Shown: positions 19,601 through 57,889 of the stretch, one piece after another
How the letters are laid out: every line of letters begins with the position of its first letter
Numbering within the stretch: the first letter of the stretch is position 1
Assembly (NCBI RefSeq): GCF_041381155.1
Contig: NC_091142.1
Span: 6,637,778 to 6,701,777, forward strand
DNA length: 64,000 nucleotides
Reading direction: 5' to 3'
DNA from: Argopecten irradians
Lineage: Eukaryota; Mollusca; Bivalvia; Pectinida; Pectinidae
Made by a program: the position numbers and the translations under genes
Notes under the pieces: generated by a model
Databases searched by the model: none
Seen by the model: the letters and a program-made list of their open reading frames with translations, nothing else
What the model was told of the DNA's origin: nothing

Positions 19601-22600
19601 GTTTCAATATTATTGAAACAATGGTTGATGTCCATCCTATTATTTCAAAGTAATAAGGGTTTGAAAGCAAAAAAAGTGTTGTTTTTTTTTTTTAAATTAT
19701 ACAGATTTTCAAAAAGTCTAAGATATTGTGATGGTAACTACATAGTTTGGATGGTAACCACTTGGCAATGCATAATGTGGGAGGAAGGGAGATCACTCTG
19801 GTGAAAGGGAGATCACTCTCTCCACTTACCTGGTGCAGTTGTTCAGCAGTGTCTTCTTCTGAACCTGACTGTTTCTGATGTCGCTTTACTAGCTGGTATA
19901 AATTGTGTGCAGCCCTGAAATCAGACAAAAGACCCAATGTCTTATATTTCCCAAAAATTTAAGCTACTTGAAAATTATCGAAATGTTTTGCGTTAAATTT
20001 TGAATTAGTTGATTTATGCTTTAAGTACATAAACTATATCGAACATAAATAATCCTATTCATAATGTTTTCTTTTTTTCTTTTCTAAATTGAAGGCCATG
20101 ACTCCCCTCCCCCCTCCCACTCCCCACCCCCTGTATACAGTATGGAGATTCAAATTGAAATTGAAATTGAACAAGTATGATGATTGAAAATGTGTTTTCT
20201 AATAAAAACTATTAGCAAACCTATATACATCACCAGGAGCTACCATGTATATGAAATCCATAATTTTTTAAAGCTTCTTTTTTAACTTACATTTTTATTC
20301 TGCCTAGCTCCAATGTTTTCTTAGCGGCTGTGTTTTTGATATGAGTCCACTTTGATTCCCAGAACACAGCCTCACTTTGAGCTTCGTCCAATCGGGTTTG
20401 TAGGCCAGATAAGAGATTATTGAAGGAAAGAATTTGGTTATTTTTCTCCTGAAACATAAATTCTTATAAATTTATCTAAACTGAAAATAATATAAAACTA
20501 ATCATCAAAGTACAGAGATCATTTTCTCAGGTTGTAAAAGATAGATGTTATTTCAAATGCAACTACCGTTATTTGATTGATGATGTTGGTAAATGTCTGG
20601 CAAAATGGTATAATTTTCTATGTCACAGTAAAACCTCAGTACTTCGAAATAACATTAATTAGTAAGACCAATTTTCATGGAAACATAAATTTGTTGATTT
20701 TGGTAAGAAAAAAAAATCAACAAAAATTAAACTCCACAGAATATAATGAGTTCACAGTAATATCTTTCTGAAGTTTTTTGATATTTTTACTAATAATAAC
20801 AAAACTTCATAAAAACTATTATTTTTGTTCAATAAAAATAAATATGCTGACCTCTGTATATTTCATTAGATTTTGTCTCTGTTGTTCAATCACTGCTTGG
20901 TTCTGGTTTTCTCGGTCCATTAAGTCCTAAAATGGATAAATTAAAAAATACAGATCTGTAATAAAAAAGAAATACATCACTTGTAATGAGCAAATAGTTA
21001 AAAAAAATTACATCAAATTAGCAACATATTTGAAATAAAACAAATACAATAAGTAACTTTTTTCCCATTGACTGGTTTTGGTTTTTAATTTTTAAAAAAA
21101 ACTTTAAAACAAAGTTTGTATTTAATGAATAAAAACAAAAAAATAGCTCTGTAATCGCAATTAAAATGAAGACCACTCAATTAGAAATCACTGGTTTGAA
21201 ATTCATAAGGCATTACAGGTATTATACAACTCATTATTTTTGCCTAATTTTGACACAATTTCAGCAATTTAGGCAGTTTTAATTAGTAATTATGGTATAA
21301 TTATATATATAATTCATCATTGTCTTTTTTTGCAACAGAGAGTATTACCCAACTTCAAGCCACAAAGCCAACCACAATGTATCTTTTTTTTTTATTCTTT
21401 TTATTATTTGATTGGGATCAAATTGACTGATCATCCATTGTCGCAGACGGAGCCTTAAGTTTTGGTATGCTATAATACAGTGCATACTTACACCATGAGT
21501 GGCGACTAGTGTATCATGCCTCGCAATGATGTCCCGCATCTCATGGAACTCTTCACCAGCCTCTAACGTCTTCTCCATATATTTGTGGAATATCGTGTAT
21601 TTTTCTAATTTACTTTGGAGTTTTTCCTTTTCTTTTAACAAGGAACCCTTTTCATCTCTCAATCTGCAAGAGAAAGATTAAACACAGTTTTGACTACAGT
21701 ACTTTTAGCTGTATATCCTGGAAATTTAGCATTTTTGAGAATATTTAGAGATGTAAGGCTGGGTTTTTTTTCGATACAGATTTTTAAATGCTCATTCCTC
21801 TTGTTTCTCAATTAATTGATATTTTTCAGCTAGGAAGATCTTTATTTTGCCATTTTTTTTTCAATAATTCAATTAGACTTATGAAGGCATCTATCAATCT
21901 AAGTATTCCAGCAATACTATTATCTTCCTCCCTCTGTTTCTCTATGAAAATCTTATTTTTAGAATAAATCAACAACACTTCACTTTTTTGAATTTTCTGT
22001 TAAATGATATTTGCAAGAGCAAATTTGTACATAAAATCAAGATTTTGACCAAAAGTTGAAAAAAAAATGGCTTGGCAGTCATCAGCTTTCATCAGTGTCT
22101 CTTCTCTTTCCACCAGCATGACACATACTGCACAAAGTAAAATCCATACGATGGAGTTTACTTTGTGCTTGTGTGTCTTTGTTCCAACAAAAATTTACAT
22201 TAATAAGCTTACTTGTCTATTTCTTTGTCTTTCTGTTTTTTAGAATCTCTTTCATCCTCAGCCTTCTTTAATGCCCGTGCACGTTTGGAGTCGTTATCCT
22301 AAAAATAGCAAACAATTGAACATCAAAATACTATAAATAGAATAATAAATGTTCTAATTTAAGGCATTTCATCAGACATGATCTGTCTTCAAGGTCTTAA
22401 TTTTTATCAATATAATGAATATGTTAAAGGGATATATCTTCATTAAATTTTGGACATCAGGATATAAATAGAAATAGCATTTGCAATGGTGCCGCATATG
22501 GATGCAACATTTATAAACAAGTAGTTTATTATTCATAGATTTTTGTAATAATCTCATTAATTTTGAACATTTTGAAAAACTCGCCTTTAAGAAATGGTCA

Positions 22601-24300
22601 AATTTTAATAGGGATTCTTTCAGCTGGTACTCCTTCCGTTCTAATTCTTCTCTTCTCTGTTGTAAACTTTCCATCTTCATTTGAAATTCCTAAGAAAAGC
22701 AAACACAAATAATAACAAGACAAATTACGATAAAAGAAGAAAAAAAAATTGTGAAACGATACTAAAGCAGTCACTAGGGTGATAGAATTAATTTGCTATT
22801 CACAACTGGTAATATTAATAAAAATATTGAAATCTTTGTTTTAATGGCGCCTCCTCTCTTATTACACATTTTTTTATTGTTTTTTTTTTTACTGGAAGCA
22901 ACACACTGACTATAAATTCCATAAAGAGATGCAGGTATGCATTGCTCAAAATTTAAAAAAAAAATGCTATGTAATGACTTTTTCTTGAATTTGGTATGAT
23001 GACAAAATTACAAAATTTTATGTGACAGCTACCAAAAAAAACCCACAAATAACAGTATAACTTCACAGAAAACTTTTCCTAGATATGAGGTGAAAATGGA
23101 AATCACATTATAAACACCCTGTACCTCTTTTTGTGCTGCAAGAGCTTGTTCCACTTCTGCCATCTCTCTCCTTTTTTCAAGAAGACGTGTAGCAGGTGTA
23201 AGATGGTCATCTTCTCTTTCCGGCATCTTTCTGTTGTAGAAATGTTTTTTACATTGAGTTGAAAATGTAAATTTGTATTCTTATTAAATGGCAAACCTAT
23301 ATAAGCATAGAGTGTTTTGTTAATACCCCTGTATGTTGTTTTTGGGTTTATTTTTTGTTTTTGAGTTTTTGGGTTTATTTTTTGTTTTTGAGTTACGAAA
23401 CTGGGCTTGAGTCTTTTAAGGCGTCCATATATATGTTAGATGTTTGTATGTGTATTTGAATGCATGATGATTGTTGGACGCGATCTGGTTCTACCTAGAA
23501 TCTGCTGCTCTTGAGGGTATATGGCGGCTTGCTGACAAAGCATGCAGCGCCTCGTTGGCCAGCTTTTCAGTTTGGTTTAAAATATTTGATTGATACATTA
23601 TTGTATGTTTCCAGACAGATACAAACAGTACTCTGAATTACGGCAGACTAGGGTCTTGTATGCACTTTCTTCAATTTTGGAAGAGTGAATTTAAGTTTCA
23701 GCCCAGAAAGCCTAGAGATTGAGTTGCTCTACTGGTCATGAGTTGAAAAGTCTTGTCAAAGAGTGACAATCAAATACTTTTGCTGACTGTAAATTCTAGG
23801 ATGTTGTTATACAAATGTTAGCTGATAGTTTCAATAGTATATTATACTAATAGTTCTACAACAGTCAATGGAAATATTGAAAGAAAAAAAAAGAAACTTC
23901 TGCCACTGTCATTGAACATGTACAGTAAGCTTCAGTATAATCTTATTTTATGACATAATAAATCAGAGAGAATATTCATAATTTTGTACACTGTTGCACA
24001 TGTAGAATTTATTTACTGGTGAAGAAAAAATAAGCTTTATAATGTACATGTACATGTAGGCCAGCTGTATGTCAGCTATCTCTGGCTAATATTCATGCAA
24101 GGAAAATAACATTTAGATGACATGGATATAATTTTGTAGCATTTGTTTTGTAACGGAACTCGATACAGTAGGCTACTGTAACCAGTAATGATACAAAGAT
24201 GATAAAAACTATTTTGTGATTCAAGCAGAAGTTTTTGTACTCACACGAGGAGTTTATCCTCGAAAGTTGTCCGGAAATATTCTCCAAGATTGACATTCAT
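13577..24300 (-). CDS. CFAP73: Cilia- and flagella-associated protein 73 (CCDC42/DUF4200 coiled-coil family)
   Basis: Axonemal coiled-coil protein. In Chlamydomonas the orthologue FAP73/MIA2 works with FAP100 in the MIA complex that supports inner dynein arm I1/f. Coding exons: 24300-24245, 23230-23125, 22689-22585, 22298-22213, 21663-21492, 20926-20852, 20448-20291, 19914-19830, then either 14447-14358 or 13672-13577. All phases join cleanly; the shared part is 281 codons and the totals are 310 or 312 residues, against about 308 for human CFAP73 from memory. Matches include the N-terminal EYFR start, RLLEKR(R/Q)E, QALxAQKE, KFDx[21 protein letters not shown] and the EDTxxQL segment leading to xMFxxDLT at the C-terminus. 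These fit CFAP73 better than CCDC42, although the family is the same. Exon 3 uses a GC donor (AAG|GCGAGT). The gene is head to head with NIPSNAP. Confidence 0.9.
13771..13950. repeat. Minisatellite, ~47-bp unit
   Basis: Three to four degenerate units start with AGCCTAGAG-type sequence at 13771, 13817, 13864 and 13910. It lies between the two alternative last exons of CFAP73. Confidence 0.7.
14358..14447 (-). CDS. CFAP73: CFAP73 alternative last exon 9a
   Basis: A 90-nt terminal exon (acceptor TTATTACAG) encoding 29 residues and a TAA stop. It starts [15 protein letters not shown], which matches the conserved C-terminal segment of CFAP73 (human QVKLFMQDLSAML, from memory). It joins exon 8 in phase 0. 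About 690 bp further along the minus strand lies a second homologous exon with its own stop, so the two can only be alternative ends. Confidence 0.82.
   Translation of the reverse strand, partial: VQMFLEDLTDICKELKRSDTLTSSCITSS
15200..15440. repeat. Degenerate minisatellite of ACCACTATAGAC units
   Basis: About a dozen imperfect copies of TTTACCACTATAGACAA with variable spacing, inside CFAP73 intron 8. Confidence 0.7.
15893..16040. mobile_element. MITE family B, full copy
   Basis: Left end AGAGTTATCTGTCCTTGCGG and right end CCGCAAGGCAGCTAACTGT are inverted. The interior has a conserved GAGCGTAACGTCATAC segment. Related copies lie at 35645-35760, 50700-51240 (interrupted) and 59990-60140. Confidence 0.75.
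16257..16375. mobile_element. Hairpin MITE with near-perfect arms
   Basis: Arms of about 35 bp: GTTGGGGTTATGAGGGTATA at left and TATACCCTCATAACCTCAAC at right, with one mismatch in this core. A second inner pair, GTGTAAATT/AATTTACAC, extends the stem. It lies in CFAP73 intron 8. Confidence 0.75.
16376..19829. other. Remainder of CFAP73 intron 8
   Basis: AT-rich intron sequence with no supported exon or element. A-rich, AGCA-repetitive sequence lies at 17090-17290. Confidence 0.5.
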
Positions 24301-24611: not shown

Positions 24612-27600
24612 ATGGAGTTCACGAAGATGGCAGGAGCTGTAGCAAAACAGTTATTTTCTAGAAACTCGGTATTGTCATGCCGTGCGTTAACTTTCGGTCA
24701 ATTTCACAACACTAGGTAAATGAAAAAAAAATCATTTTGCACCGAAAAGTCGGAGTGAATCCGTCTTTAATGACTAATTGCCGGTTTTAAAACTTGATGA
24801 TTGCAGACGACAACAAACTCATTTGTACTTTCATTTTCAAGGCCAGTCAATGTCAATCATGGAATATTTTAAGTCTGCATGTGTTCAATTGATTCAATTG
24901 TTAACTGCACATCTATGAATACAATGGCCACATATTTAGTAATGATTAACTGGATTTAAACACAGTAAATCGTCTAGTGTTTACAATAATTTGTAACCAT
25001 ATTTCAAACCATACCAGATCGATCCTCGGATGCTTATTTTTCGCCTGCAAACACTACCCAGTAAACACATATCGATTAGTAGTCGATAATGTCATATTTG
25101 TGGTAGATGGTAGCAACAACAACAATATCTGCTTCTGTCTATCTGTTTAATATGACTGAAGGCAAGGCCTTAAAGGGCGCCGCCAGGTGTTTCAGTAAGC
25201 ATTCATTATGCAATGTTAAAAAGTTCAATTTATGGAAATATCGGAGCCGAATTTTCTGTTTATTTTTTATTCGTATATTCACACTCTATCTTCGTCCCAA
25301 AACCCCCATTTGAGAAGGAAAACCATATAAGAGAAGAAAGAAACTTTAAATTCCGTAACAGATATGCCTTTTTGGTCAAGTGATTATATTGGACGGTAGT
25401 CTATCACTTGAACGCTTGCAAGTAAAGAGCAACAGCACTGAGCTTCTGCCGGATGAAGATGACGTTCGTTGGATCTTAAAAGCGTTTGAATTGCTTGATT
25501 ATATATAATGTGCTGACTTCAAGCATCGCATTCACGCTGATGGGATTTTTTACAGTGGATGAAAAAATGACTGCCGCAAACTGAAGCTGTCAGTGTGTAG
25601 GATTGAATTTTGAAGATTGTGTTTTTTCTAATATTTTCATGTATGCGTTACCTTAGAAGTGCTTCGCCCTTATTATGTCAGGAGCATCGCCACACGTTCA
25701 GATTACCGGGTAAACTAAAAGATTGACCTCTGTGAATACAAAAGCCTTTGTATAGATATATTTTACAACAATATGGACTGTAAGAACAGCAATATATTTA
25801 GACCGTGTTTATGAAATATTTAAATATCCACATTAAATATAATAAATATATTATCAAGAACATACCTTTGACTAGCATGGTGACATGTAGTCTGGATAAA
25901 TGTTTGTCAACAAAATGTCATGCGACTTAAACCCGTAGATTTTGTCCGTCGTCTACCTCGTTAAAGCGCCACTCCCCTCTTACACACCACTTAAATACAC
26001 ACTTAAACACACCCCTTTTCATGTGTAAACTCTCATGCTTACACGTCAGATCCTGACATACCTGGACACAACTGAATGACCAGGTTACAGATAAAATTAA
26101 ACTTAACATTATATAACTACTGGACGCACAAGGACACATACTATAAATAGACATACAGGTAAACAGATGACATTCACTGTAAACAGTGATGCACAAAAAC
26201 GGAACACATGACAACCGATACAACCAATTCCCAACACTATAACAGGGCAAGAGTACTGAGAAGTATGCTGCCAGGTAGGCTCAAACTCACGACCCTGGAC
26301 TTGCTGGTTCTCTCTCCAAGGAAGCCTCCAATATACTACTCTCAGCCAGGGGAGATAACCTAAAATAGCCAAAAAAGAGAGACATTATTCAAAATTAAGG
26401 AAAATTGTGAACTGGTGATAGCGAGGTTTCAATCCAGTTTTAATATTTGCGTCTTTTTCTTCACAAACTAATACTAGCTTAGTGATGATCAATCTCTATT
26501 AATTGAGCTCATGATTCAGTTATTAAAAATCTCCATCTCAACCAGGGTTGGACTCAAAAGTTCAAAACCTGTGAATCTGATGTCAATTGTGATCTTTTAT
26601 ACAGGTCTATATATATATATGTTAAATTGAGATTATCTGCAGGGCTAGTATTGTGTTAATTAGTTGTTTTTTTGTTTTGTTTTTTTTTTCTTTCGGAAAC
26701 AACCCTATTCTTGACTACTTTCCATAAATCATTGTTTCAGATGCCTTAGTACCTCACACAAATTGCAAACTGATTCAGACACAGACTCAAAGTCATGGCT
26801 GAAAAACTTTCTGCCAGTGAGGACATTACCTGCCAGCAAGGAGTCTCACTCCAGTCTCCTATCCAACAAGGAAACTGTCTACGAAATGCAGTGTAAGTTC
26901 AAAATTGGGATTCTACGATTCAATAGGTTACAGTAATTTAGAATTTCTCTCTTAAACAAATTATAATACTGTATTCGCAGTAGTTAGCGCCCTCCCCCCT
27001 ATAAGCCCCCCTCCACTTTCCTGGACAGGAGTTGAATTGGTATAAACTCCCCCTTTCCATGGATTGAATAATGTTTTGCAACATGTGATGCCTCTAACAT
27101 CAGTATTGTATCCCATAATATAAATTACATAAACTTGTGAGCCTTTTACATTTAAATCACCACATAATAATGAATCTCAAAGGATAACAAACATGTTTAC
27201 TGTAACAGATAAATGTACAAGGAATACAGAAAGATTTAAGATATGACTGACTTTTTTCGTCCACAATTTACATTTCGGTTCATTAATAAGAGCCCCCCCC
27301 CCCCCTCCCTTTGTTACAATAATTTAAGCGCCCTGGTCGCTAATAACAAATAGTAAATAGCTACATCAGTGTACTTAAGTTTCCATAGTCGTAATAATTT
27401 TGATTGACTTTTTCCGCAGTGTATCTCTGTATCTGTCAACATGCATTTGTCTGCATCTTCTAAGATTTTGTCAAATTGCCAATAATTTCCATAAAACTGT
27501 ATTTTCAGTCCATGCTGTAAAACCTGAGAGTATGGAGGAGTACCTCAAGCAGTTGTAAGTTGGTTTTAGAAATTATCTGTAGAGACTTACTTTATGTCAC

Positions 27601-30600
27601 ATCAGGATCTGTAATTGTTTTGTGCTAAAAATCTATTCTAAAGATCATTCCAGTAAAACATATCATTACTAAAAAATATCTAAAAGTACTTAAAAGTTTT
27701 CAGAATGGTTAAAGTCAAAAGTTCTGTTATTAAAATCAATAATCCAGGAAAATTTAATATCTTTTCCCTCCTAGGGCCCCAGATGTTTCTCCGGGTTGTC
27801 TTTCTTTCTTTACTCGTACAAATATCTAGAGCGCCCCGCAGAACTTAATTTTTTGTCTGTATATACCTAAAGGACCTTCATTGCTAGAAATGGAACGGTT
27901 TACAGTAATGCATTGGATCTCAGAGTCGTGAACCGATGCATTATTGTTTAGTTTGTTTCCCTTGACCAGCATTAGCCATATGTTTATCTCGGCTGACAAG
28001 CTGAAGTCAACATTTGGTTACAATGAAATTTGGCAGCACTTGTCAAAAATTAAATTAAATAAAATTTACAAAATTATTCATAATCAAACATATTGTACAC
28101 ATTGGTTTTCAAAGACAAATTCTAAAATGATGAATAAACAAGTTGTAAAGCTTTATTTATGTCATCCTCGACGCTCCGTGGGTTACTATCACTAACGTTA
28201 TATCCAACGCTGGACTATTTCAAAGCCATGCAGTCAACCACAGTGTACCATTATATGATGTACATCAAATTACCTGGTGTCTTTGCTTCCAATGAGATAG
28301 TCCAGGGATGGATATGATGTTAGTTATAGTAACTCCTATATGCTCTCTCAAATTCAAATTCAAGAAGTTGATGATGATCGTTGTTTGCCAATTTCAATTA
28401 TGTTATTTATTGATAGTGTCAATAGTTGGATATTTTTCAATTATTTGAGATGAAAATGAAGTAACTATGATATGTAAATATTCTCTGTAAAATATTCCAA
28501 TATTGATCATTTGCCTTTCAGTCAATCATTTCAACAGTTGATGCATGACAAAGGAACAGGTGCCAAACTTATAGGTAGCTTTACAGTGGAAATAGGAGAT
28601 CAGGACGAGGCAGGTTGGTATTATTGGTAATTTATATTTGAGATCGACATATATAATCATATTTGCTGAAATTTGAATCTAATGAGTCAATTAAAACAAA
28701 TGTGTCTCCAAACTAGGAAAACAGCTAGAGTTTTTGACTGGCTTTGGAATAAAAATCCATATTTTTACACTTTTTGACATATAATCATCAGATGGTGGGC
28801 TATTCAAATCGCCTTTTGTCCGTGGTCCGTCGTCCGTCCGTCCTTCTGTCCGTCCGTCCGTTAACAATTCTTGTTACCGCTATTTCTCAGAAAGTACTGA
28901 AGGGATCTTTCTCAAATTTCATATGTAGGTTCCCCTAGGACCCTAGTTGTGCATATTGCATTTTGGGACCGATCGGTCAACAAGATGGCCGACAGGCGGC
29001 CATCTTGGATTTTGATAGTTAAAGTTTGTTACCGCTATTTCTCAAAAAGTACTGAAGGGATCTTTCTCAAATTTCATATATAGGTTCCCCTAGGGCCCTA
29101 GTTGTGCATATTGCATTTTGGGACCGATCGGTCAACAAGATGGCCGACAGGCGGCCATCTTGGATTTTGATAGTTAAAGTTTGTTACCGCTATTTCTCAA
29201 AAAGTGTTGAAGGGATCTTTCTCAAATTTCATATACAGGTTCCCCTAGGACCCTAGTTGTGCATATTGCATTTTGGGACCGATCGGTGAACAAGATGGCC
29301 AACAGGTTGCCATCTTGGATTTTGATAGTTAAAGTTTGTTACCGCTATTACTCAGAAAGTACTGAAGGTATCGTTCACAAATTTCATATGAAAGTTCTCC
29401 AAGAACCCTAGTTGTGCATATTATTATTTGGGACCAATCGGTAAACAAGATGGCCGACCGACGGCCATATTGGATTTTGATTGTTACAGTTTGTTACCGC
29501 TATTTCTCAGAAAGTACTGAAGGGGTCTTTCTCAAATTTTATATGTAGGTTCCTCTTGTACCCTATTTGTGCATAGTACCTTTTAGGACTGATCCATAAT
29601 GCCTTTCGGGACTGATCGGTAAACAAGATGGCCAACTGGCCGCCATCTTAGATTTCATTGTTGAAGTTTGTTACCACTATTTCTTAGAAAGTACTATAGC
29701 GATCAGTCTCAAATTTTATATGTAGTGTATTTGAAAAAGTTTAAAAAGCAGAGAAAAGATCCCTCTTTCCATTGTCAGACATAGATCATTCTTTGGTGGG
29801 CGCCAAGATCCCTCTGGGATCTCTTGTTGACATATAGATTTTAAGAATAAACTACTAAAATTGTGTTTAAGTCGCTTTAATAGGGGAAATGCAGGAAATG
29901 ACAAATCTATACAGATTTATAACTTCAACAACACTAAAGAATCATGTAAGTTATATAAATGAATATTTTAAATAAAGAAAAAAAAATATTGTATAATATT
30001 TATTTTCCCCTATACATTTTATATTATGAAGAAGTGGTTTCATATATTGAGAATTTTAGATAGATAGTACTCTTTTCTACTTGCAGTGCATATCTGGCAG
30101 TATCCAGGAGGGTACCCTGTTCTCAACAATGCAACAGAAATTTACAGAAAAGATAAAGTAAGTTAGACATTAATCTTTATAAAACTACAGAAATATTCAA
30201 TAAAAATAGGCAAATTAAGAAACATTTGCAGGGGTTTCATTATCAGGCGGTACCCAGTTCTTTCCGCCAGTTAAACCTGGCTGTGGTACCGCCTGATTTA
30301 GGCTAAATTACATTAGATAGCTTACAAATAGTATATTAAAGTACCCCCTGAAATTGTAATTGTACTGCCTCTCCTGAAAGATAATGAAACTCCTGCATTT
30401 GGTTATGAATTATGATCATCGTAAAGTTTCAATGAACCTGACAGTAAAGTGTGAACCAAAGCACTGTCATGGTGACAAAATATTGAGAATCTTATTAGTG
30501 TGATCATGTACATATACCTGACTAAGAATCAATTTAGAAATACATCCTCTAGCCCATTCACACCCCCCCCGACACATTTAGGACCTTCTAAATCAAAGAC

Positions 30601-33600
30601 TAGACCAATCCATTTGAAATTTCAGGGGTCATTGAGCTAGTTTACAAAATAATTTTATATATACTGACAATTTGCTTGCTGTTTTTACATTGTTTGCTGT
30701 TTTTACATTTGTTCGTCTCAGAACTCCTCTGCAATCCCTCCTGACTATTTCCTGAAAGAATTTCATTTAAATTTTTAAATGAAATCAAGATCAGATGAAA
30801 AATCTTAAATCTTAATGTTTTGTAGCCTTCTGATATTTAAATTGCTTTTGATTCTGTATACTGTTAGGTAAATTCTACATCCATAAAGTTAGGGCCCACA
30901 TTTTTAATACTTCAGGCATAAGAAATTTCATGAAAAATTGTTCTGAAGAAGCGCACATATTAAAAGCAAGATTGGTAGACGTACCTTAAATAAAGATAAC
31001 TACCTACATGTATCATGAGCTTGTTCCAATTGAATATTAATTTTAATTTCAAGAAAGGTATGTCGCACATATCATTTATATCTTCTATTTAAAAATTTGC
31101 CTGATATTCCTGTCTAGGACTTCATTGATTATCGTCTGCGACGAAACAAAATGCTGCGATCGAGGAAGAACCAGATCTTGCTTCCCTTCAGCTTCTGGCC
31201 AGAGCCCACTGCCAGGAGCGGCAGTAACATTTACGAGATGAGAAGTTATACACTAAAGGTATGGACAAATTTACAGATCATTTACAAAATTATTGGCATG
31301 CTTTAATATTTTCATAGTACATTACATGCTCAGTAAAATTAGAATAAGACTTAGGGAACCAAAATGTAAGTTGTAGGCAAAATAACACTCTTTCCATACT
31401 CATATGGCACAATGATTTGTCACATTAAACATGGATGCATTCTTTCCTTTGAGATGCATTATTATATATGATTGTGAATGACTCACAAGTTTTTGTAAAC
31501 ACACAGAAGAATCACACAGTTGTAAAACATTGTTAAATCCATGGGAAGTAGGAGGGTTGTTTCACAAATATATTACTTCTTCAACTCCCTTCTCCAGAGA
31601 AAAGGAGGGGCGCTTATAAGGGGGGAAATACATTTTCTGCAAATAAGTTTCAACTGATAAACTGCAATATTTTACACCTGTATCATTTAACAGCTTCAGT
31701 TGTTTAAAACAGAATTTATCTCTATTTTGCAGCCTGGTACTATGATTGAATGGGGAAATAATTGGTAAGTATGCAAACTACATGTAAAAATATTTGCAGT
31801 TTTAATTTAAACGTATGATATATAAGATTGAAAAAAAAAGTTTGATAAATTTCCTTTATATGCGATTCATTTGATTATATCATCATCGTTAACTTTCTGG
31901 TTTATTCTTTAATAGTCAGATAATTCTATTACTTTTGAGTTACTGGATATTAATTGATATTTTGATATCAATACGTTCCTAACGTTGAAATACATTTCAT
32001 CTATATTTTAGTAGTGATATATATATATATATTTTGCCGACAAGAACTCATTAGCTGTCATTTATTTCTAACTGCAGTTAGTATCTAAGCCATGCTTTCA
32101 TACTTCGGCTAAATAAATATACTTTATCTGACACAAGGATTTGGGGGGCTATATGTCTGCTGTGAAAAGCTAAAAACAGATTTTATAGAGCTAGCTCAAA
32201 TTTAACTTCTTGAAAAGCAAATATGTGCTTTAACTGAAAAAATAGAGCTCTGGTACTTTTGTTTATTTGTCTAAATGTGTGAAAACTGTTTCGCTTCTGA
32301 CTTCATTTCTAACGCATTTTCATAGATTTTTTCTTCACGTAGCTTGTGGAAATAGCTTTTAATGTCTTGACCAATGATTGAATATGTATAACTAGTAGTA
32401 TGCAGCAACAATCTACAGGAAATTTTTATATTGCTAAAAAATTCTGACAATTAATAAACATTTTTGAAGGGCTCGTGGCATAAAATCACGAGCAGACGAA
32501 CCCGTCTGCGGACTTTTTTCACAAATGGGTGAACTGAACACAGTTCAGCACATCTGGGGTAAGTTTAAGAGTTATCTCCCCTTGCCAGAGCACAGCGTTC
32601 ACGGAATCCTGTGTGCTGAACCTACCATCTCTACCTGAACACTGCGCTACAATTTCTCTAACATTTGTTCCATCAATTAAAAGTAGAATTTCTGCTTTTG
32701 GTGCATCTTTACCTGCTGTTCCAAGTTTACTACTAACAACAGAATTTCAGTGATGCTTTCTCTCGTGTGGCACTCAACAATGAAGCAAATACAACACATT
32801 ATTTTGGGTTGTTTAACTATGAACAAATTGCGTCAGAATATAAGAATGATAAAAATCACCATTTTATTGAATTTTTTATTTCACTTATTTAATTCAGTCA
32901 AACGTTTTAAAGGGACAATTCACTCAGGCTAATTCTTTTATATAACCAAGAAGCAAAATATGACATAAATATATTGTTCTGCATTTCGTATGAAACATAT
33001 AACATAAAATATTGACAAGTTCGAAGTAATTCATTAGTGAAAAAAAAAAAAAAAAAAGTTCTCTTTCAAATGAAAAACAAAATTCTAAAGGCAAACACAT
33101 TTTTGTCTGTTGATTTGATTATTCCGAGCTTTATAAATGGTCACTGGAATTCTGTCTTTTGTTTGGTTGGTTGTAAATAAGTATAACACTAATAATATAT
33201 ACTTTGTACCAGAACGCAGGGAAACTGATACTTTGGCTCACAGAAACAAAATGTTTGTTTACTAGTAATACTTTTCTCCATGCGTAGATGAAAAAATTCC
33301 TTAATTTCCAATCGTGATAAATTGTTGACCACTTTGCTATCAGTAAACTTTTCTGTATCGCTATATTGCTGTTGTTTTGTACTGGATAGCTAATTAAATT
33401 TGCGGTGTTAATATTTCATGGTTTTGAAACATGTTGTGGAGGATTAATTTCGCAGTTTTTAATTACTACAATTTGTGAATTTATTTGATACTTTAATTGT
33501 TCTTACCTATGCAGTTTTGAAATCTTTTCTAAAATTTTATAGAATTCGTGAATTTCAGTTGAAACACATATATAGGGAAAATGATCCACCCGCAAAATTT

Positions 33601-36600
33601 AATCACTATGCTGGTATATAACACTGTTTGATTTTTATGCTACACGTTAAATTTAAATTTCAAGCTGTATATTATTTTTGGTACATCTGCTGTTCTTCAA
33701 CGGAGTCTAAAAGATTTCTTATAATGCATTTTTTGTCTCTGAGCCACAGTAGAGAAGACCTTGTGTTTATCTGTCCTTCCAGAGTTACAGTCATAACGTT
33801 CGTGCTCTGGCAAGTAACAACAGCAACATATAGATAATATCACGGTAAACATATATTGAACATATTCTAGTAAGGATAAAAATCATTAATTTAAACAAAT
33901 TCTATATTCTGTGTTTCATCATTATGAATCTTACAAACTTTTTTGAAAAAATATTGTAAAAAATTCAAATATGAATAAGTTTTGAAATGCGAAAAAAAAA
34001 TTAAAATCAATAAATAAAACTGCAAACTTGGAAAAGTGTCGTTGTTTTATTTAAAAAATTATTAAAAAAAATATATATATATATTATTATGTTGAAACCT
34101 AGTGGTTATTTTTGAAAAGCAGTTTTAACAAAATGATTTATTTCATTCTTACAGTCTAGGATATATATACCGGTATATGTTTACTGTGTTAGCATTACTT
34201 TTCAGAAGCCTGGTGTGAGGGAACTGTAGTTGTGCGTTTATTTACTAATAATGTTAGTTGGTAATGAAAATATATGTGTGTTTAACGTTATATTATAAAG
34301 GGCTCGTGGGATAGAGAACCGAAGGTCAAATGACGAGGCGGTAGCTGGATTATTCACACATTTGGGAGAGCAATACGTTGTACACCATGTATGGGGTATG
34401 TGGTCTTACAATGATCAGTGGTGCTCAAACTGCTAATGTGTGACATACAGTATTTTTTTTTTTTTTTTTTTTTTTTTGTGGGGGGGGGGGGGGGAGGTGT
34501 AGAAATGGTACCAAGTCTTAAAACTTCAGAAATATGCATGTTTCAAAATTTGCTTCCAAATGTTTTAACTGTTTAAAATTCATACTAAGTAGTCAAGTGT
34601 ATTTTTTTTTTTTTTTTCACATTTCATTAATTGCTAGGGCCCATTTCAGAAATACAGACTTATTTGATAATAATTAAGAATGAAGTTATCAAAGTGTAGT
34701 ATTTGACCAAATAAGCGCCCATGTCCCTAGCTACAAGCGCCCCTCTTCCCTTTGAGGCCTCAATTTCAATTGCCCGCGGACATAAATAAAGACAAAATCT
34801 GTAAAGGTTTGCATTCAATTTGTCTTAGTAAGGGGGCCGCGGTGGCTGAGTGGTTAAGATGTCCCGACATATTACCACAAGCCCTCCACCTCTGGGAAGC
34901 GGATTCGAATCCTATATGGGGCAGTTCCAGGTACTGACCACTGGCCGGTGGTTTTTCTCGGGTACTCCGGCTTTCCTCCACAACAAACCTGGCAACATGA
35001 CCCTGGCTGTTAATAGGACGTAAAAATAAACAAACCAAAAGTCTTAGTAAGCACCTTTTTTTTCATTTTTTTTTAAACGCCCATGACGCTTTTTGGGTTG
35101 AATACTGTAAGTTTTGGTGTAAAAGACAGTTGTTTGGGAAATCTTTTTAGTTTTGGACCTTAGTATTTAAGAGCTGGCAATACATACAGTTTCTTTTCCT
35201 TTATTTATTATCATTACCAATATACTGGGCACAGTTGTTATTATACAAATGTCATCATTTTAAAGTTTAAAAGTTGAGCCCAGATTATCCCTAGATCATT
35301 CTGGCATATTATTTGTATAAGTCTTCAGATTTTGCTGTGATGTTTTGTGAAATTCTTAAGAGGTTAATTGGCAACTTCATCTAGCATTTAACAATATTTT
35401 TTAACAAAAAAATATACTATTAATTAGATATTAATCCAATCTAATTAAAATTAGATCTTCTTTGTGTCTCTATGTAGACCTCTACCTTTGCCAAAATGTT
35501 GAGCTTGATATCCAGATTTTGCATAGTGCTGACTATAGCATATTCCCTAATGCCTGATACTCCCAACTTCCTTTAGTCACTGATACATGTAACCTGGCAC
35601 ATCCCCTGAAATGACCCTGGTTTGTTCTGTATTTGCATATTAGAGTGATCTGCCCTTGCAGGTTTGTATTGATTTTGACATCTTTATGTGAATTGTGCCC
35701 ATAAATAATGCAGTCACAATTGATACCTATTCTTAAGGGAGCTAACTCTGCAATACGCAAAGATGAAGGGGATACCTATCCTCAAGGGAGACAACTGTAA
35801 TATGACGGAATAATTGAATGTAAAACACAAATAAAACCAGATAATCCTGATGATAGATAAGTGGTGTGTGACAAAATTATCTGTTAAAGATATAGATCTT
35901 AACTCATTCACCCTGAAATTTCCTAATGAACTGGTCTAGTCTTTGATTTAGAAGAGTCTAAATGTGTCTTCAGGGGTGAATTAGTTAATTGATATTTAAT
36001 TTAATATGTTACATGAAGAGTTTTTGAAGTTGAAGTTACGTGTTTTATAATGTGTTGTTTTTGTTTGTTTAACTAAAAAAAATGCATGTATATGTACCTG
36101 GTAGGTCATAGACAATGTGAAGACAAATGCATGTCTTGGTGAAAGATAACATAATAATAATCCAGATGATAGATATAACCTAATGACATACATCAGCTAG
36201 ATCTTTGAATTCCAAGTTAAAAAAAACTGCCAGTCATATTAATTGTTGTGAGTGATTGTGACTAAATAATACTAATACTTCTATCAATGTGGGGGTTTAT
36301 TTTCCGAGATACCAAAACAATGTGAGTAAATAAAAAGCACAATTTACTGTCGATTAGACCCGCCTTCTGATGATTGTGATATCACAAAATCATATCAAAA
36401 TACGCTAACTAGCATAACCAGTGGAAGGTGGGACTCTCACCATGTTGGTATCTCGAAACCAACAACCGGGTATTTAGTGAGTTGGTATCAGTCTATGACA
36501 AGACTAATTTAATACATAATTACCAGGTATGTAATAGTTCATGTATCATATATTTAATTCATTTTTATTAGCCCACCATCATCAGATGGTGGGCTATTCA

Positions 36601-39532
36601 AATCGCCTTTCGTCCGTGGTCCGTCGTCCGTCCGTCCTTCCGTCCGTCCGTTAACAATTCTTGTTACCGCTATTTCTCAAAAAGTACTGCAGGGATCTTT
36701 CTCAAATTTCATATATAGGTTCCCCTAGGGCCCTAGTTGTGCATATTGCATTTTGGGACCGATCAGTCAACAAGATTTTGACAGTTAAAGTTTGTTACCG
36801 CTATTTCTCAGAAAGTACTGAAGGGATCTTTCTCAAATTTCTTATGTAGGTTCCCCTAGGGCCCTAGTTGTGCATATTGCATTTTGGAACCGATCGGTCA
36901 ACAAGATGGCTTGGATTTTGATAGTTAAAGTTTGTTACCGCTATTTCTCAAAAAGTACTGAAGGGATCTTTCTCAAATTTTATGTGTAGGTTCCCCTTGT
37001 ACCCTAGTTGTGCATAGTAACCTTTTAGGACTGATGCATAATGCCTTTCGGGACTGATCGGTAAACAAGATGGCTGTAACAACGGCCAACCGCCGCCATC
37101 TTAGATTTCATTGTTGAAGTTTGTTACCACTATTTCTTAGAAAGTACTATAGCGATCTGTCCCAAATTTTATATGTCATGTGTTTGAAAAAGTTTGAAAA
37201 GCAGGGAAAAGATCCCTCTTTCCATTGTCAGACATAGATCTTTCTTTGGTGGGCGCCAAGATCCCTCTGGGATCTCTTGTTTAGACAATTAAAGTTATAT
37301 GTACCATATGTTCCATACACATGAATCAAGAAGAGCTTTTAGTATGTTAATTATAGTGGTAGGAATCGGTTGCAATTTTATGATCGATTATTAGTTTTAT
37401 GTAACCAATGGATGATCGATTAAAATTGATTACAGTTTTCTTTGGTCCCACTGACGACCGTTTTCCGGGAAAATCGTAAAACCTTTCTTCTTCACATATT
37501 GCCATCACCTCAGGTTGTTTATGTTTTCACAAATAAAACTATACTCCTCTGAACGTTTACATTACCACATATTCGTATGTGCTCTTTAATTCGTTTAGAC
37601 GCTTGATATGAGCAAAAACACACACAAGCAATTGATTTCAACAAGTTTTCTACAACATTTCTTGCGTGTTTTACTGATCGGCTAATTATACACTTTCATT
37701 TTAATATCATGATGTCGGACAATTCCGATGGAACTTGATTAATTGGTCAAACCAATGATACTCGATGAATCGGAACAGCACTAGTTAATTACCACCAAAA
37801 ATTACAAACATTTTGATAATTAGAATACTTCCAATTCATAGCTTTCAATTTTACAAGTACATATAAAATTATTGTATTTACATCTACAGTGCAGTGAAAT
37901 GAGTATATATGGTTGGAGTATGCAGCCACATTTTGTCTACAATTTCATTTCACATTTATACAATGTTATTAGTAATTTTATAGTGATTTCTGCATGTATG
38001 TTTCAATTTAAACATACATGCATGTATGTTTCAATTTAAACATACATAAGACATAAAAATCACAATTTTACAGTGCATAATGACCGTGGTGTACGTAACT
38101 AACGTTTAAAAGGCATCATATATATGCTTGTCTGTCCATTTAGATGAATTTCACAGCTTCATTCATTAAACATTATGGTTTTCAAATGTTTGATGAAGAA
38201 AACATAACATGTCAAAATTTTCGCCCAGTTATGGCACATATAATCAGGGTAAAAATATATATAGCTAAATATGTAATGCTGTCTGAATTTAATACTGACT
38301 ATACTTCTTTGTGATTTTAACTACATTATTCCCATGCCAATTGAAAATAATTAAAATGGTGTTTGTTTTATTTGTTGGAAGTACATTTATACAGGGGATC
38401 TTAAACTTATTCTAAAAAAATGCAATTTTATACGCAATATAACAGTCTGATCTAGCTGTTTCCATTAGAAGATATATAAAAATATATATGTACATCCTCA
38501 TATCCAAGTTTAATAGTCGTAATTAGTAACCCCTGGATACTGAGTGTGCATGATCTACACATGTATATTTATATGTGAATATCTACAATTCAATTCAGAG
38601 GTAACTAGTATGCATATAATAATTATGATGGGTCATATTTTTGGAAAACTGGCAGAAATGATGATTTTAATTCTCTTACTTTGTCTTCATTTTTAAGCTG
38701 AAAAATTACTGTTTTACCAGAATTAAAAATTAAATTTAATAATGTTTCGACATCTTTTAGGTTACACTGATTTACAATCACGTAAAGAGACAAGAGAGCA
38801 GGCTTGGAGTAAACCTGGCTGGGACGAGTGTGTCGCCTACACTGGTGAGTTAACAAACAAAACACATTCTAGAATACAAACAGAATTATTTCTGGTCCTG
38901 GCTTTTAATCTGACACCATGATTTGTAGTACATTGTACATGTATTTACCAAGTGAAGTTTTTCCGAGTTTGTTAACATGAATGACCTTGAAATTTATTGA
39001 AGGTCAGTGTGGTGATGAAGATGTTTGACTATATACCTTTTACCAATTCAAGCAACCCCATCCCTATTAGCGCCCCTCCCACTTTTTAGGCTTCAATTTC
39101 ACTTACTTCATGAATTGATTTATTTAATTTGTAGTCTAGAATAACTTTATCAAGGCTTGTCCAAATTTGTTTCTATGAAGTGCTCCTGTATTTGCATCAA
39201 TTTTTTAAGTGCCATTGGCACTTATTGGGTCAAATATGGTAACCTTTTCATATAACTCATTCATCCCTGAAGTTACATTTAGACTCTTCCAAATCAAGAA
39301 CTAGAACAGTCCATTGTGAATTTTCAGGGATGAATGAGTTCAACATATGTGAATAGGATATGTTGATAGGCAAAATAAATCCGAACCAATCATGACTAAA
39401 GTTTGTGTGTTGCTCTTTGTGTTTTGTGAAAATATCTTAAAATGAAAATGTATGCTCTTATTTTCAGTGCCCCTGATTCGCCACATGCAGTCAAGAATCT
39501 TAATCCCAACACCATTCTCACCCCTCCAGTAG
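24612..39532 (+). CDS. NIPSNAP: NIPSNAP1/2 homologue, ten coding positions with a duplicated exon 8
   Basis: Mitochondrial protein of the NIPSNAP family (dimeric alpha-beta barrel fold). In mammals NIPSNAP1 and 2 collect on damaged mitochondria and recruit autophagy receptors. Coding exons: 24612-24715, 26741-26892, 27509-27554, 28522-28613, 30087-30157, 31118-31258, 31733-31764, one of 32470-32558 or 34301-34395, 38761-38844, 39468-39532. Every junction is GT-AG and in phase, giving 291 or 293 residues (human NIPSNAP2 is about 286). The start is a basic, acid-free presequence (AVAKQLFSRNS) typical of mitochondrial targeting. Family landmarks follow: [63 protein letters not shown], and the invariant C-terminal SPLQ. 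NIPSNAP1 and 2 are vertebrate paralogues, so a single symbol is safer. Introns carry several mobile elements. The gene diverges from CFAP73. Confidence 0.95.
24716..26740. other. NIPSNAP intron 1
   Basis: No supported exon. A tRNA-like SINE fragment lies at 26225-26360 on the minus strand. Confidence 0.5.
26225..26360 (-). mobile_element. Possible tRNA-derived SINE fragment
   Basis: Read on the minus strand it contains GGGTCGTGAGTTTGAGCC, similar to a Pol III B box. A recognisable A box is missing, so this is tentative. Confidence 0.35.
26970..27355 (-). mobile_element. MITE family A, inverted copy
   Basis: Carries the inverted version of the element at 44742-45048, including GCAACATGTGATGCCTCTAA and GTATCCCATAATATAAATTA. 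It has added C-rich tracts. It lies in NIPSNAP intron 2. Confidence 0.65.
28790..29832 (+). mobile_element. Pearl/Helitron-like element, family 1, 155-bp core units
   Basis: Starts ATCAGATGGTGGGCTATTCA, then GTCCGTCGTCCGTCCGTCC. Core units begin TTGTTACCGCTATTTCTCA at 28871, 29026, 29181, 29336 and 29491, an exact 155-bp period, with a longer last unit. It closes with the hairpin GATCCCTCTGGGATC and CTCTTGTT. No transposase frame. It lies in NIPSNAP intron 4. Confidence 0.75.
30227..30397. mobile_element. MITE with inverted ends in NIPSNAP intron 5
   Basis: Left end GCAGGGGTTTCATTATCAGG and right end GATAATGAAACTCCTGCA are inverted. An internal GGCGGTACC / GGTACCGCC pair lies next to the left end. 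Confidence 0.65.
30545..30612. mobile_element. MITE family C, partial copy
   Basis: Matches the ~87-bp hairpin seen whole at 35897-35985: CATTCACACCCCCC near one end and GACTAGACCAATCCATT inside. Confidence 0.55.
31345..31640 (+). mobile_element. MITE family A, diverged copy
   Basis: Follows 44742-45048 in the same order: AACCAAAATGTAAGTT, ATACTCATATGGCAC, ACATTGTTAAATCCATGGGA and AGGAGGGGCGCTTATAAG. The left end is eroded. It lies in NIPSNAP intron 6. Confidence 0.55.
32470..32558 (+). CDS. NIPSNAP: NIPSNAP alternative exon 8a
   Basis: An 89-nt exon between TTTTTGAAG and a GTAAGT donor. It completes the W codon from exon 7 and encodes ARGIKSRADEPVCGLF then SQMGELNTVQHIW, homologous to the segment after GTMIEWGN(N/Y) in other NIPSNAPs. 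It is two codons shorter than 8b and than the vertebrate segment, and has Q where the usual HH pair begins. Entry phase 2 and exit phase 1 equal those of exon 8b. Confidence 0.87.
34301..34395 (+). CDS. NIPSNAP: NIPSNAP alternative exon 8b
   Basis: A 95-nt exon between TATTATAAAG and a GTATGT donor, 1.74 kb downstream of exon 8a. It encodes ARGIENRRSNDEAVAGLF then THLGEQYVVHHVW, closer to the vertebrate sequence (EAVGGFF, YVVHHLW, from memory) and of the usual length. Splicing 8a to 8b would give a TAG five codons into 8b. Skipping both would give a stop three codons into exon 9. Exactly one must be used. Confidence 0.88.
34452..34496. repeat. Poly-T then poly-G tract
   Basis: About 26 T followed by about 15 G, just 3' of NIPSNAP exon 8b. 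The run lengths may be unreliable in assembly. Confidence 0.8.
34700..35110. mobile_element. MITE split by a SINE
   Basis: Left end AGTATTTGACCAAATAAGCG and right end CGCTTTTTGGGTTGAATACT are inverted relatives. The middle is taken up by the SINE at 34833-35040. Related fragments lie at 39030-39245 and 46905-47035. Confidence 0.6.
34833..35040 (+). mobile_element. tRNA-derived SINE, full length with 11-bp target duplication
   Basis: The A box (TGGCTGAGTGG) and B box (GGATTCGAATCC) are well kept in the tRNA-like head. A conserved central part follows (GGTGGTTTTTCTCGGGTACT, CTTTCCTCCAC) and then an A-rich tail (AATAAACAAACCAAAA). GTCTTAGTAAG flanks it exactly at 34822-34832 and 35041-35051. 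This is the layout of mollusc SINEs with a shared central domain, but I cannot name the family. Confidence 0.85.
35645..35785. mobile_element. MITE family B, diverged copy
   Basis: GTGATCTGCCCTTGCAGGTT at left and ACAATTGATACCTATTC then GGGAGCTAACTCTGC at right match 15893-16040. A second right-end-like piece (GATACCTATCCTCAAGGGAG) follows at once. Confidence 0.6.
35897..35985. mobile_element. MITE family C, whole hairpin
   Basis: About 87 bp: AACTCATTCACCCTGAAATT, CTGGTCTAGTC, then TTTAGAAGAGTCTAAATGTG and AGGGGTGAATTAGTT. The ends and the central TTAGA...TCTAA are inverted. Confidence 0.7.
36573..37281 (+). mobile_element. Pearl/Helitron-like element, family 1, second copy
   Basis: Starts AGCCCACCATC...GATGGTGGGCT (a hairpin) and a CCGTCC microsatellite. 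Three to four core units follow, some internally shortened. It ends GGGCGCCAAGATCCCTCTGG and CTCTTGTTT. It lies in NIPSNAP intron 8. Confidence 0.75.
37282..38760. other. Rest of the NIPSNAP intron before exon 9
   Basis: AT-rich, with a short direct repeat of GCATGTATGTTTCAATTTAA at about 37992 and 38021. No supported exon. Confidence 0.5.
39254..39343. mobile_element. MITE family C, whole hairpin
   Basis: AACTCATTCATCCCTGAAGT then TTAGACTCTTCCAAATCAAG and CCATTGTGAATTTTCAGGGA with TGAATGAGTT, the reverse orientation of 35897-35985. Confidence 0.65.
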
Positions 39533-42632: not shown

Positions 42633-43706
42633 CACAGGGACCTGGCACGAAAATTTTTTAACCAATAGTATACATATATATATTATAGTATCAAGGGTAT
42701 GAACTCGGCGGTCGAGAAAAACGGACCTATTTTTTTAAAACCATGATTATTTTAATAAATGGGTTATATACAACATTGACGGATATCTTACCTTAAAGAG
42801 AAATAATTTATCTTTCCATTGAGTGCTTGATGAACAAAATTGGCCAAGTATTGACGAAGTTATGGCTTGATGAATCGGGAAATTTACGAAAAATATGCTA
42901 GGTAGACATTTCCCTGTCCGGTCGAAATGTCGTCTCGGCTCTAATGGGTACCTCAAAAACCAAGCCAAAATCACAAAATCTACGCTTGTGGTGGTAAACA
43001 GTACCCATAACTGTGTTCATCCACAATCTCCTTTGGAGGTGTCATGACCCGTACTTTGTAGAAACTCCATTTAAACATCGTGTAGCTCATTTACTTTAAC
43101 CGTCACCGCCATGTTCATTTTTCTCTCGGAACGCTTCTCGACTTTACATATCGTGACTACATTATGCAAATTATGTAATGTTGTGCTTGTAGGTAAACTC
43201 GAGAAGCGTTCCGAAAAACAAATGAACATGGCGGTGACGGTTAAAGTAAGTGAGCTACACGATGTTTAAATGGAGTTTCTACAAAGTACGGGTCATGACA
43301 CCTCCAAAGGAGGTTGTGGATGAACACAGTTATGGGTACTGTTTACCACCACAAGCGTAGATTTTGTGGTTTTGGCTTGGTTTTTGAGGTGCCCATTAGA
43401 GCCGAGACGACATTTCGACCGGACAGGGAAATGTCTACCTAGCATATTTTTCGTAAATGTCTCGATTCATCAAGCCATAACTTCGTCAATACTCGGCCAA
43501 TTTTGTTCATCAAGCACTCAATGGAAAGATAAATTATTTCTCTTTAAGGTAAGATATCCGTCAATGTTGTATATAACCCATTTATTAAAATAATCATGGT
43601 TTTAAAAAAATAGGTCCGTTTTTCTCGACCGCCGAGTTCATACCCTTGATACTATAATATATATATGTATACTGTTAGTTTAAAAAAATCGTGCCAGGTC
43701 CCTGTG
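42633..43706. mobile_element. hAT-like foldback element, 1.07-kb near-perfect palindrome
   Basis: Two arms of about 515 bp (42633-43148 and 43193-43706) are inverted copies differing at only a few percent of sites, around a ~44-bp spacer. The ends are CACAGGGACCTGGCACGA and TCGTGCCAGGTCCCTGTG. TTTGTTAC flanks both sides (42625-42632 and 43707-43714). An 8-bp target duplication and CAGGG ends fit the hAT superfamily. Each arm carries the same 75-codon frame pointing outwards (42974-42747 minus; 43366-43593 plus). No transposase is present. A lone end of similar sequence lies near 47248-47266. Confidence 0.85.
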
Positions 43707-55925: not shown

Positions 55926-56491
55926 GTAAAAAGAACGGGTCGGTGTGATTTGTATATAGTGTTAAATATGCCTCTGTCACTCAGCTGACGAAGTATGTAT
56001 GCTTCTTTCAATCTTTGGCTCAGTCGGCAGAGTAGTTTTTATCCATCTTTATGTTACCTAGGTTTATCCCTCTCTCACTATATTGTATAATATATTTCTA
56101 AGGTTTATCCCTGTCTCACTATATTGTATATTACATAACTTAGGTTGATCCATATCCTATATTGTATATTATATTACCTAGGGTTACCCCTCCATAACTA
56201 TATTGTATATTATATAACTTAGGTTTATCCCTGTCTCACAATATTGTATAATATATTACTTAGGTTTATCCCTTTCCCACTATATTGTGTATTATATTAC
56301 CTAGGGTTACCCCTCCATAACCATATTGTACATTATAATACTAAGGTTTATCCGTGTCTCACTATGTTGTATAATATATTACTTAGGTTTATCCCTCTCC
56401 CACTATATTGTGTATTATATTACCTAGGGTTACCCCTCCATAACCATATTGTACATTATAATACTAAGGTTTATCCGTGTCTCACTATATT

Positions 56492-56652
56492 CAGTGTTCA
56501 ATCTACGATTATTTTTCGTGGGTCCTTTTCAATGGTTTTTGTAAAAACAATGGGTCCCACAGTGTTATAGATACCCATTCCCAGAAATTTCATGGGTCCT
56601 TTTAAAATTCTGTGAGTCCAGGACTCGGGATGCGCATGTAGATTGATCACTG
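56492..56652. mobile_element. hAT-type MITE inside the satellite, copy 1
   Basis: 161 bp with inverted ends CAGTGTTCAATCTAC and GTAGATTGATCACTG. TATATT flanks both sides. Inner GGGTCC words are repeated. It interrupts one satellite unit. Confidence 0.7.
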
Positions 56653-57728
56653 TATATTGTATATTATATTGCTAAGGTTTATTCCTGTCTCACTATATTG
56701 TATATTACATAACTTAGGTTGATCCATATCCTTCTATATTGTATATTATATTACCTAGGGTTACCCCTCTATAACTATATTGTACATTATATTACTAAGG
56801 TTTATCCGTGTCTATATATAGTATAAGTATATTATATAAAGTAGGTTTTATCCCTGTCTCACTATTTTGTATATTATATTAATTAGGTTTATCCCTATTC
56901 CACTATATTGTATATTATATGACTTAGTTTTATCCATGTCTCACTATATTATATATTATTTTACTTAAGTTTATCTCTATCTTAGTGTATTGTATATTAT
57001 ATTACTTAGGTATCTCTCTCACTCTTACTATATTGTACATTTTATTACTAAGGTTTATCCCTCTCTCACAATATTGTACATTATATTACTTAGGTTTATC
57101 CCTGTCTCACCATATTGTATATTATATAACTTAGGTTTATCCCTGTCTCACTATATTGTATATTATATAACTTAGGTTTATCCCTGTCTCACTATATTGT
57201 ATATTATATTACTTAGGTTTATCCCTGTCTCACTATATTGTATATTATATAACTTAGTTTTATCCCTGTCTCACCATATTGTATATTATATAACTTAGGT
57301 TTATCCCTGTCTCACTATATTGTATAATATATTTCTAAGGTTTATCCCTGTCTCACTATATTGTATATTACATAACTTAGGTTGATCCATATCCTATATT
57401 GTATATTATATTACCTAGGGTTACCCCTCCATAACTATATTGTATATTATATAACTTAGGTTTATCCCTGTCTCACAATATTGTATAATATATTACTTAG
57501 GTTTATCCCTTTCCCACTATATTGTGTATTATATTACCTAGGGTTACCCCTCCATAACCATATTGTACATTATAATACTAAGGTTTATCCGTGTCTCACT
57601 ATGTTGTATAATATATTACTTAGGTTTATCCCTCTCCCACTATATTGTGTATTATATTACCTAGGGTTACCCCTCCATAACCATATTGTACATTATAATA
57701 CTAAGGTTTATCCGTGTCTCACTATATT

Positions 57729-57889
57729 CAGTGTTCAATCTACGATTATTTTTCGTGGGTCCTTTTCAATGGTTTTTGTAAAAACAATGGGTCCCACAGT
57801 GTTATAGATACCCATTCCCAGAAATTTCATGGGTCCTTTTAAAATTCTGTGAGTCCAGGACTCGGGATGCGCATGTAGATTGATCACTG
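57729..57889. mobile_element. hAT-type MITE inside the satellite, copy 2
   Basis: Identical in layout to 56492-56652 at an offset of 1,237 bp. It was carried by the block duplication and did not insert separately. Confidence 0.7.

Follow-up and report, generated by a model that had tools for sequence, protein, structure and literature searches.

Probable mutually exclusive versions of exon 8 in the NIPSNAP gene of the scallop Argopecten irradians, with counterparts in other molluscs

Introduction

Mutually exclusive exons are recognised by features such as similar lengths that differ by whole codons, a common splice-site type and frame, and homology between the two exons (PMC3228551, accessible part), and most of the human mutually exclusive events that arose by tandem exon duplication are ancient, according to the accessible text of a survey of such exons (PMC9741552). 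The closest described system is that of coq-2, a gene of mitochondrial function with mutually exclusive homologous exons, 6a and 6e, which are present in molluscs (PMC7434440, accessible part). NIPSNAP proteins are likewise connected with mitochondria, human NIPSNAP1 having a role in mitophagy, where it helps to tag damaged mitochondria for removal (PMC12842286, accessible part). The subject of the present work is the NIPSNAP gene of the scallop Argopecten irradians, and within it two homologous versions of exon 8, hereafter called 8a and 8b, located in a stretch of 64,000 nucleotides of contig NC_091142.1 (positions 6,637,778 to 6,701,777 of the forward strand, hereafter the window). Judged from the sequence, 8a and 8b are with high probability a tandem exon duplication, mutually exclusive in use, with the choice enforced by the reading frame.

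A preliminary description of the locus knew of no earlier account of such an exon pair for NIPSNAP. The literature searched likewise contained no description of mutually exclusive exons in NIPSNAP, most subscription journals lying outside its coverage, and NIPSNAP is not mentioned in the main text, as far as accessible, of the human survey (PMC9741552). Both isoforms are, however, already present in the automatic annotation of NCBI, and the new part is the age of the exon pair.

Results

Two versions of exon 8 in one gene

The NIPSNAP gene lies on the + strand with a coding span of 24612-39532, as reconstructed exon by exon from the window. The exons concerned in the choice are as follows (column 24 refers to the aligned exon 8 segments).

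31733..31764, + strand, NIPSNAP exon 7, common to both forms, ending with the TG of a Trp codon (spliced frame; P0001/P0003)
32470..32558, + strand, exon 8a, alternative, with Leu at column 24 and QH (profile match; product equal to isoform X2)
34301..34395, + strand, exon 8b, alternative, with Gln at column 24 and HH (profile match; product equal to isoform X1)
38761..38844, + strand, NIPSNAP exon 9, common, holding the stop that arises when both versions are skipped (spliced frame)

Exon 8a has 89 and exon 8b 95 nucleotides, both 2 mod 3 and thus 6 nucleotides apart in length. They are separated by an intron of 1742 nucleotides, and the intron after 8b has 4365 nucleotides. Each enters after TG, completing the Trp codon, and each exits one base into a Gly codon; the two encoded segments are 55 % identical over aligned residues. 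The pair is accordingly of near-equal length by whole codons, of conserved splice-site type and frame, and homologous. When both exons are included, the frame meets a TAG at base 12 of 8b, 165 nucleotides ahead of the last exon junction, and when both are skipped it ends at a TGA in exon 9 (base 8), 74 nucleotides ahead of that junction. Stops located more than about 50-55 nucleotides before the last junction lead as a rule to nonsense-mediated decay, so transcripts with both exons or with neither would be expected to be degraded. The preliminary description agreed with these results throughout: its coordinates for two homologous exons about 1.74 kb apart were exact to the base, and the common entry and exit phases, the early TAG in 8b, the stop in exon 9 and an 8a that is two residues shorter with QH, where 8b has HH, were all found as described.

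The spliced 8a form consists of 291 amino acids and is identical in every residue to P0001, 'protein NipSnap-like isoform X2 [Argopecten irradians]', and the spliced 8b form, with 293 amino acids, shows the same full identity to P0003, 'isoform X1' of the same species. Both isoforms match PF07978, with 146.0 and 146.2 bits against a curated cut-off of 22.3. A profile of exon 8, built from 52 segments including scallop 8a and 8b, was run on all six frames of the window, which comprise 2919 open stretches. It gave two matches over threshold, 8b (2.6e-19) and 8a (2.8e-16), the next value being 0.31; no third copy of exon 8 was found above the threshold in these stretches.

That each mature RNA carries exactly one of the two exons is suggested by the two annotated scallop isoforms, by a frame that bars an intact protein with both or neither, and by one contig with 8b only. 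The protein of this contig, P0063, equals P0016 of Tegillarca at 166 of 166 residues, minus exactly the 22 residues of 8a, with exon 7 followed directly by 8b and then by the usual C-terminus. The contig, presumably assembled from public reads, is most likely a transcript, since it is intronless at 1362 bases, compared with 4365 nucleotides for the scallop intron after 8b. It shows, at the level of transcript-type sequence matching Tegillarca, the use of 8b without 8a. Taken with the ordered pair found in four other molluscs (below), these observations support the mutually exclusive use that had been proposed earlier. In such a scheme, splicing would connect exon 7 with one of the two versions, and this version with exon 9. 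The two resulting NIPSNAP proteins would be alike except for about 30 residues in their C-terminal NIPSNAP domain. The phase would enforce the choice, as inclusion of both exons or of neither would shift the frame and place a stop suited to nonsense-mediated decay.

The exon pair in other molluscs

Four over-long protein models hold both versions in tandem and in the same order as the scallop gene: those of Tegillarca granosa (P0016), Batillaria attramentaria (P0007), Nucella lapillus (P0008) and Elysia crispata (P0042). The hosts are an arcoid bivalve, two caenogastropods and a sacoglossan, so that with the scallop the pair is seen in five species of two classes. The joins between the two versions look mispredicted, three of the models having non-homologous linkers of at least 6 residues and the 8a of Tegillarca stopping after 22 residues; its visible part is without the two residues that are also missing from scallop 8a. 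The exon pair probably predates the bivalve-gastropod split.

Isoform X1 of the chiton Liolophura and scallop 8a both have the motif ELNTVQH, a hint that the pair could extend further back in time. A segment two residues shorter was also observed in P0081, P0085, P0088, P0097 and P0111, which are named as, or resemble, scorpion, tick and spider proteins. The shortening sits near the gap position of scallop 8a and is apparently independent of it.

Column 24 and the His pair

In the five same-gene pairs, where the type is given by position, the upstream copies have L, L, L, L and V at column 24 and all five downstream copies have Gln. A census of this column covered 249 segments from 246 retrieved proteins (the best 120 of 648 matches, the best 120 of 499 and all 83), the entries being representatives of 90 % clusters and the naming groups being assigned by hand from the match lists. 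Among the named mollusc segments 17 of 44 carried Gln, compared with 4 of 92 segments of unnamed source and 0 of 113 named non-mollusc segments, this last absence being weak evidence in view of the sampling, in which clusters at 90 % can conceal isoform pairs. Cephalopods had the Leu type alone among the sampled proteins, where the absence of the other type is again weak evidence.

Leu at column 24 was found in 112 of the 113 named non-mollusc segments, and HH in the same proportion (112/113). The first His has been lost in 10 of 27 non-Gln mollusc segments (five QH and five EH), and HH is retained in all Gln-type segments except that of Bradybaena (16/17). The preliminary description had assigned the usual length and HH pair to 8b, but 8b cannot simply be called the typical form and 8a the deviant one: at column 24, 8b has the mollusc-only Gln and 8a keeps the Leu of nearly all named non-mollusc segments. 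The two types depart from the common form, each at a site of its own, as would be seen with divided or new functions, although this pattern is no proof of them. A mollusc segment without Gln is not necessarily an 8a; those of cephalopods and Solemya could come from unduplicated genes.

Splice sites and exon choice

Of the ten acceptors in the NIPSNAP gene, the two poorest in pyrimidines belong to 8a and 8b, with 9 and 10 of 18, compared with 11-14 in the other eight, and only these two have an A at position -3. The chance that two named exons are the two weakest of ten acceptors is 1 in 45. The two weak acceptors may be the point of regulation, with the frame clearing the errors.

Long-range RNA pairing was considered as an exclusion mechanism but not adopted, there being no clear signal over shuffled sequences. 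In a duplex scan with tiles of 60 by 120 nucleotides, the best pairing of intron 7 with the 8a-8b intron reached -34.8 kcal/mol, inside the range of 8 shuffles (-30.2 to -36.2), and that of the 8a-8b intron with the initial 1.7 kb of the intron after 8b reached -39.1, slightly beyond three shuffles (-34.7, -36.5 and -38.6); the shuffles were too few and the margin too small for any claim. The region has 128 inverted-repeat pairs, and most of the 25 longest are A/T-rich. Steric exclusion by short spacing was also rejected, the 1742-nucleotide intron arguing against simple distance (no search for a distant branch point was made). The hexamer TGCATG has 24 occurrences in the window, six of them between exons 7 and 9 (nearest 140 nucleotides past 8b), and was given no weight.

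Consequences for the protein

When aligned with bacterial NIPSNAP chains of solved structure (5kak, 1vqs and others), the segment exchanged between 8a and 8b falls in the C-terminal domain. In the barrel fold it should comprise the last part of helix 1 together with strands 2-3. All 68 aligned proteins have the second His and the Trp of the HH-x-W motif, and the first His is variable. We know of no ligand of the barrel domain of human NIPSNAP1. The part exchanged between the isoforms may alter the handling of a ligand or partner by the barrel; the preliminary description had put forward dimer contact or ligand pocket as candidate differences. A more specific idea, put forward by analogy with coq-2 and in our view rather unlikely, is that molluscs have had a switch since the Cambrian between a near-animal-wide barrel and one with the mollusc-only Gln, set by tissue or oxygen state. 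If this were true, the swapped 30 residues would mark the binding site of the NIPSNAP ligand or partner.

Alternative explanations

It is conceivable that one copy is unused, only 8b (or only 8a) making protein and the other being noise or a poison exon by which expression is lowered. The frameshift on double inclusion or skipping would permit control by decay, and both acceptors are weak; yet 8a and 8b are both intact coding exons, and the 8a segment is identical in the Argopecten, Pecten and Ylistrum proteins. Both types also occur in proteins from short contigs (8a type in P0014, P0018 and P0040; 8b type in P0023, P0049, P0051 and P0063), and a poison exon would not need to preserve a homologous protein segment, all of which makes an unused copy very unlikely. 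Decay of one exon in close relatives, considered in the preliminary description, was not seen among the proteins compared; the four over-long models, too, have each copy in readable form, with 8a shortened in that of Tegillarca. Inclusion of both exons in one longer protein is what P0007, P0008, P0016 and P0042 would imply if taken at face value. It can be regarded as extremely unlikely, as the scallop frame stops within 8b, the foreign models bridge the frame by non-homologous linkers or a shortened 8a, and the Tegillarca-matching contig of P0063 has 8b alone.

The pair could also be mutually exclusive and yet have arisen by separate duplications of exon 8 in several mollusc lineages, with convergence of the copies. 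Such independent duplication has a precedent in mrp-1, in the accessible part of PMC7434440, and convergence of exon pairs of this kind is emphasised in the accessible text of PMC9741552. It is nevertheless improbable, as both the order and the Leu-or-Val/Gln difference are alike in all five same-gene pairs across two classes, Gln is confined as described above, and the copies are closer to the same type in other genera than to the partner in their own genus. In eight genera the mean identity was 0.66 among 8a segments, 0.71 among 8b segments and 0.58 between the copies within one genus. These genera comprised the five same-gene pairs and three additions with the types taken from separate proteins: Mytilus (M. 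coruscus and M. californianus), Patella (P. vulgata and P. caerulea) and two proteins, possibly of separate genes, of Babylonia areolata. In a tree of the exon (52 segments, 31 columns), the 14 Gln-type rows required 3 changes, compared with a mean of 12.4 after shuffling. A single origin of the 8a/8b pair, by one duplication ahead of the bivalve-gastropod split, is likely but not proven.

Several points weigh against an exclusive pair of single origin. The observed a/b labelling of the eight genera ranks first of 128 possible labellings, but the ranking is partly circular, as the three added genera were labelled by motif. The exon tree has no single Gln clade, two nemertean sequences and Solemya falling inside; such a clade was neither rejected (approximately unbiased test, p 0.318) nor recovered, and 31 columns are too few to prove one origin, for which reason independent duplication keeps its small probability. 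Two sequences depart from the simple pattern: at column 24 Solemya P0006 has His, and in Bradybaena P0037 the Gln is accompanied by QH. To these are added the four foreign models with both exons in one protein and the lack of a clear pairing signal between the introns.

Gene structure and neighbouring features

The remaining exons of the gene each lie in the open spliced frame and equal P0001/P0003, except as indicated.

24612..24715, + strand, NIPSNAP exon 1, coding part from the ATG
26741..26892, + strand, NIPSNAP exon 2
27509..27554, + strand, NIPSNAP exon 3
28522..28613, + strand, NIPSNAP exon 4
30087..30157, + strand, NIPSNAP exon 5
31118..31258, + strand, NIPSNAP exon 6
39468..39532, + strand, NIPSNAP exon 10, coding part including the stop codon (spliced frame; equals P0001/P0003)

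The internal exon borders are AG..GT throughout, and both spliced isoforms are open down to the stop. When the genome (845.8 Mb, 1508 contigs) was searched with the isoforms and the best candidates only were scored, the NIPSNAP-domain matches were the window locus and one exon of 28 % identity on contig 2; no other copies of exon 8 or retrocopies were listed beyond these two. The contig 2 exon belongs to a distant paralogue (G000:C2:42496657-42496824, L001), and short tandem repeats are arrayed in the first kilobase of that locus.

A coiled-coil gene on the minus strand (20300-24298, DUF4200 match at 22372-22680) is located head to head with NIPSNAP. Its ATG at about 24298, chosen by eye, lies some 310 bases from that of NIPSNAP, and the two genes may have a common promoter region. 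Further features of the window are a gene of the voltage-gated potassium channel type on the minus strand (8802-11428; Ion_trans/Ion_trans_2 at 8802-9752, BTB_2 at 10853-11428) and, 3' of NIPSNAP, an inverted repeat (42654-43686) with two arms of 511 nucleotides, 96 % complementary and 11 nucleotides apart, which is possibly a palindromic mobile element. At 56008-58500, tandem units of 41 bp are nested inside a longer repeat, and this array includes two identical frames of 108 amino acids at 56244 and 57481, 1237 bases apart.

Discussion

The scallop pair differs from the events of the human survey (PMC9741552, accessible text) in its lineage, Mollusca, and in having exons that are unequal by 6 nucleotides. 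The likeness to coq-2 extends to the distribution of the two forms, the a-form of coq-2 being similar to the exon that other animals have, with the second form limited to some phyla; the coq-2 pair is also found in helminths and annelids (PMC7434440, accessible part), whereas the NIPSNAP pair was seen in molluscs only. A ubiquinone/rhodoquinone switch has been demonstrated for coq-2 alone, and its exons in C. elegans are equal, with 134 nucleotides each (same source).

Vertebrate NIPSNAP1 and NIPSNAP2 belong to the same family, PF07978, and provide two protein versions per animal, as in the scallop. In vertebrates the versions come from two genes, in the scallop from two exons of one gene, and the vertebrate NIPSNAP proteins retrieved have the Leu-type segment. 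The exchange of 8a and 8b in two mollusc classes would amount to a natural domain-swap experiment, flagging a segment of which it was worth having two versions, and NIPSNAP would stand next to coq-2 among the mitochondrial genes for which molluscs have mutually exclusive exons.

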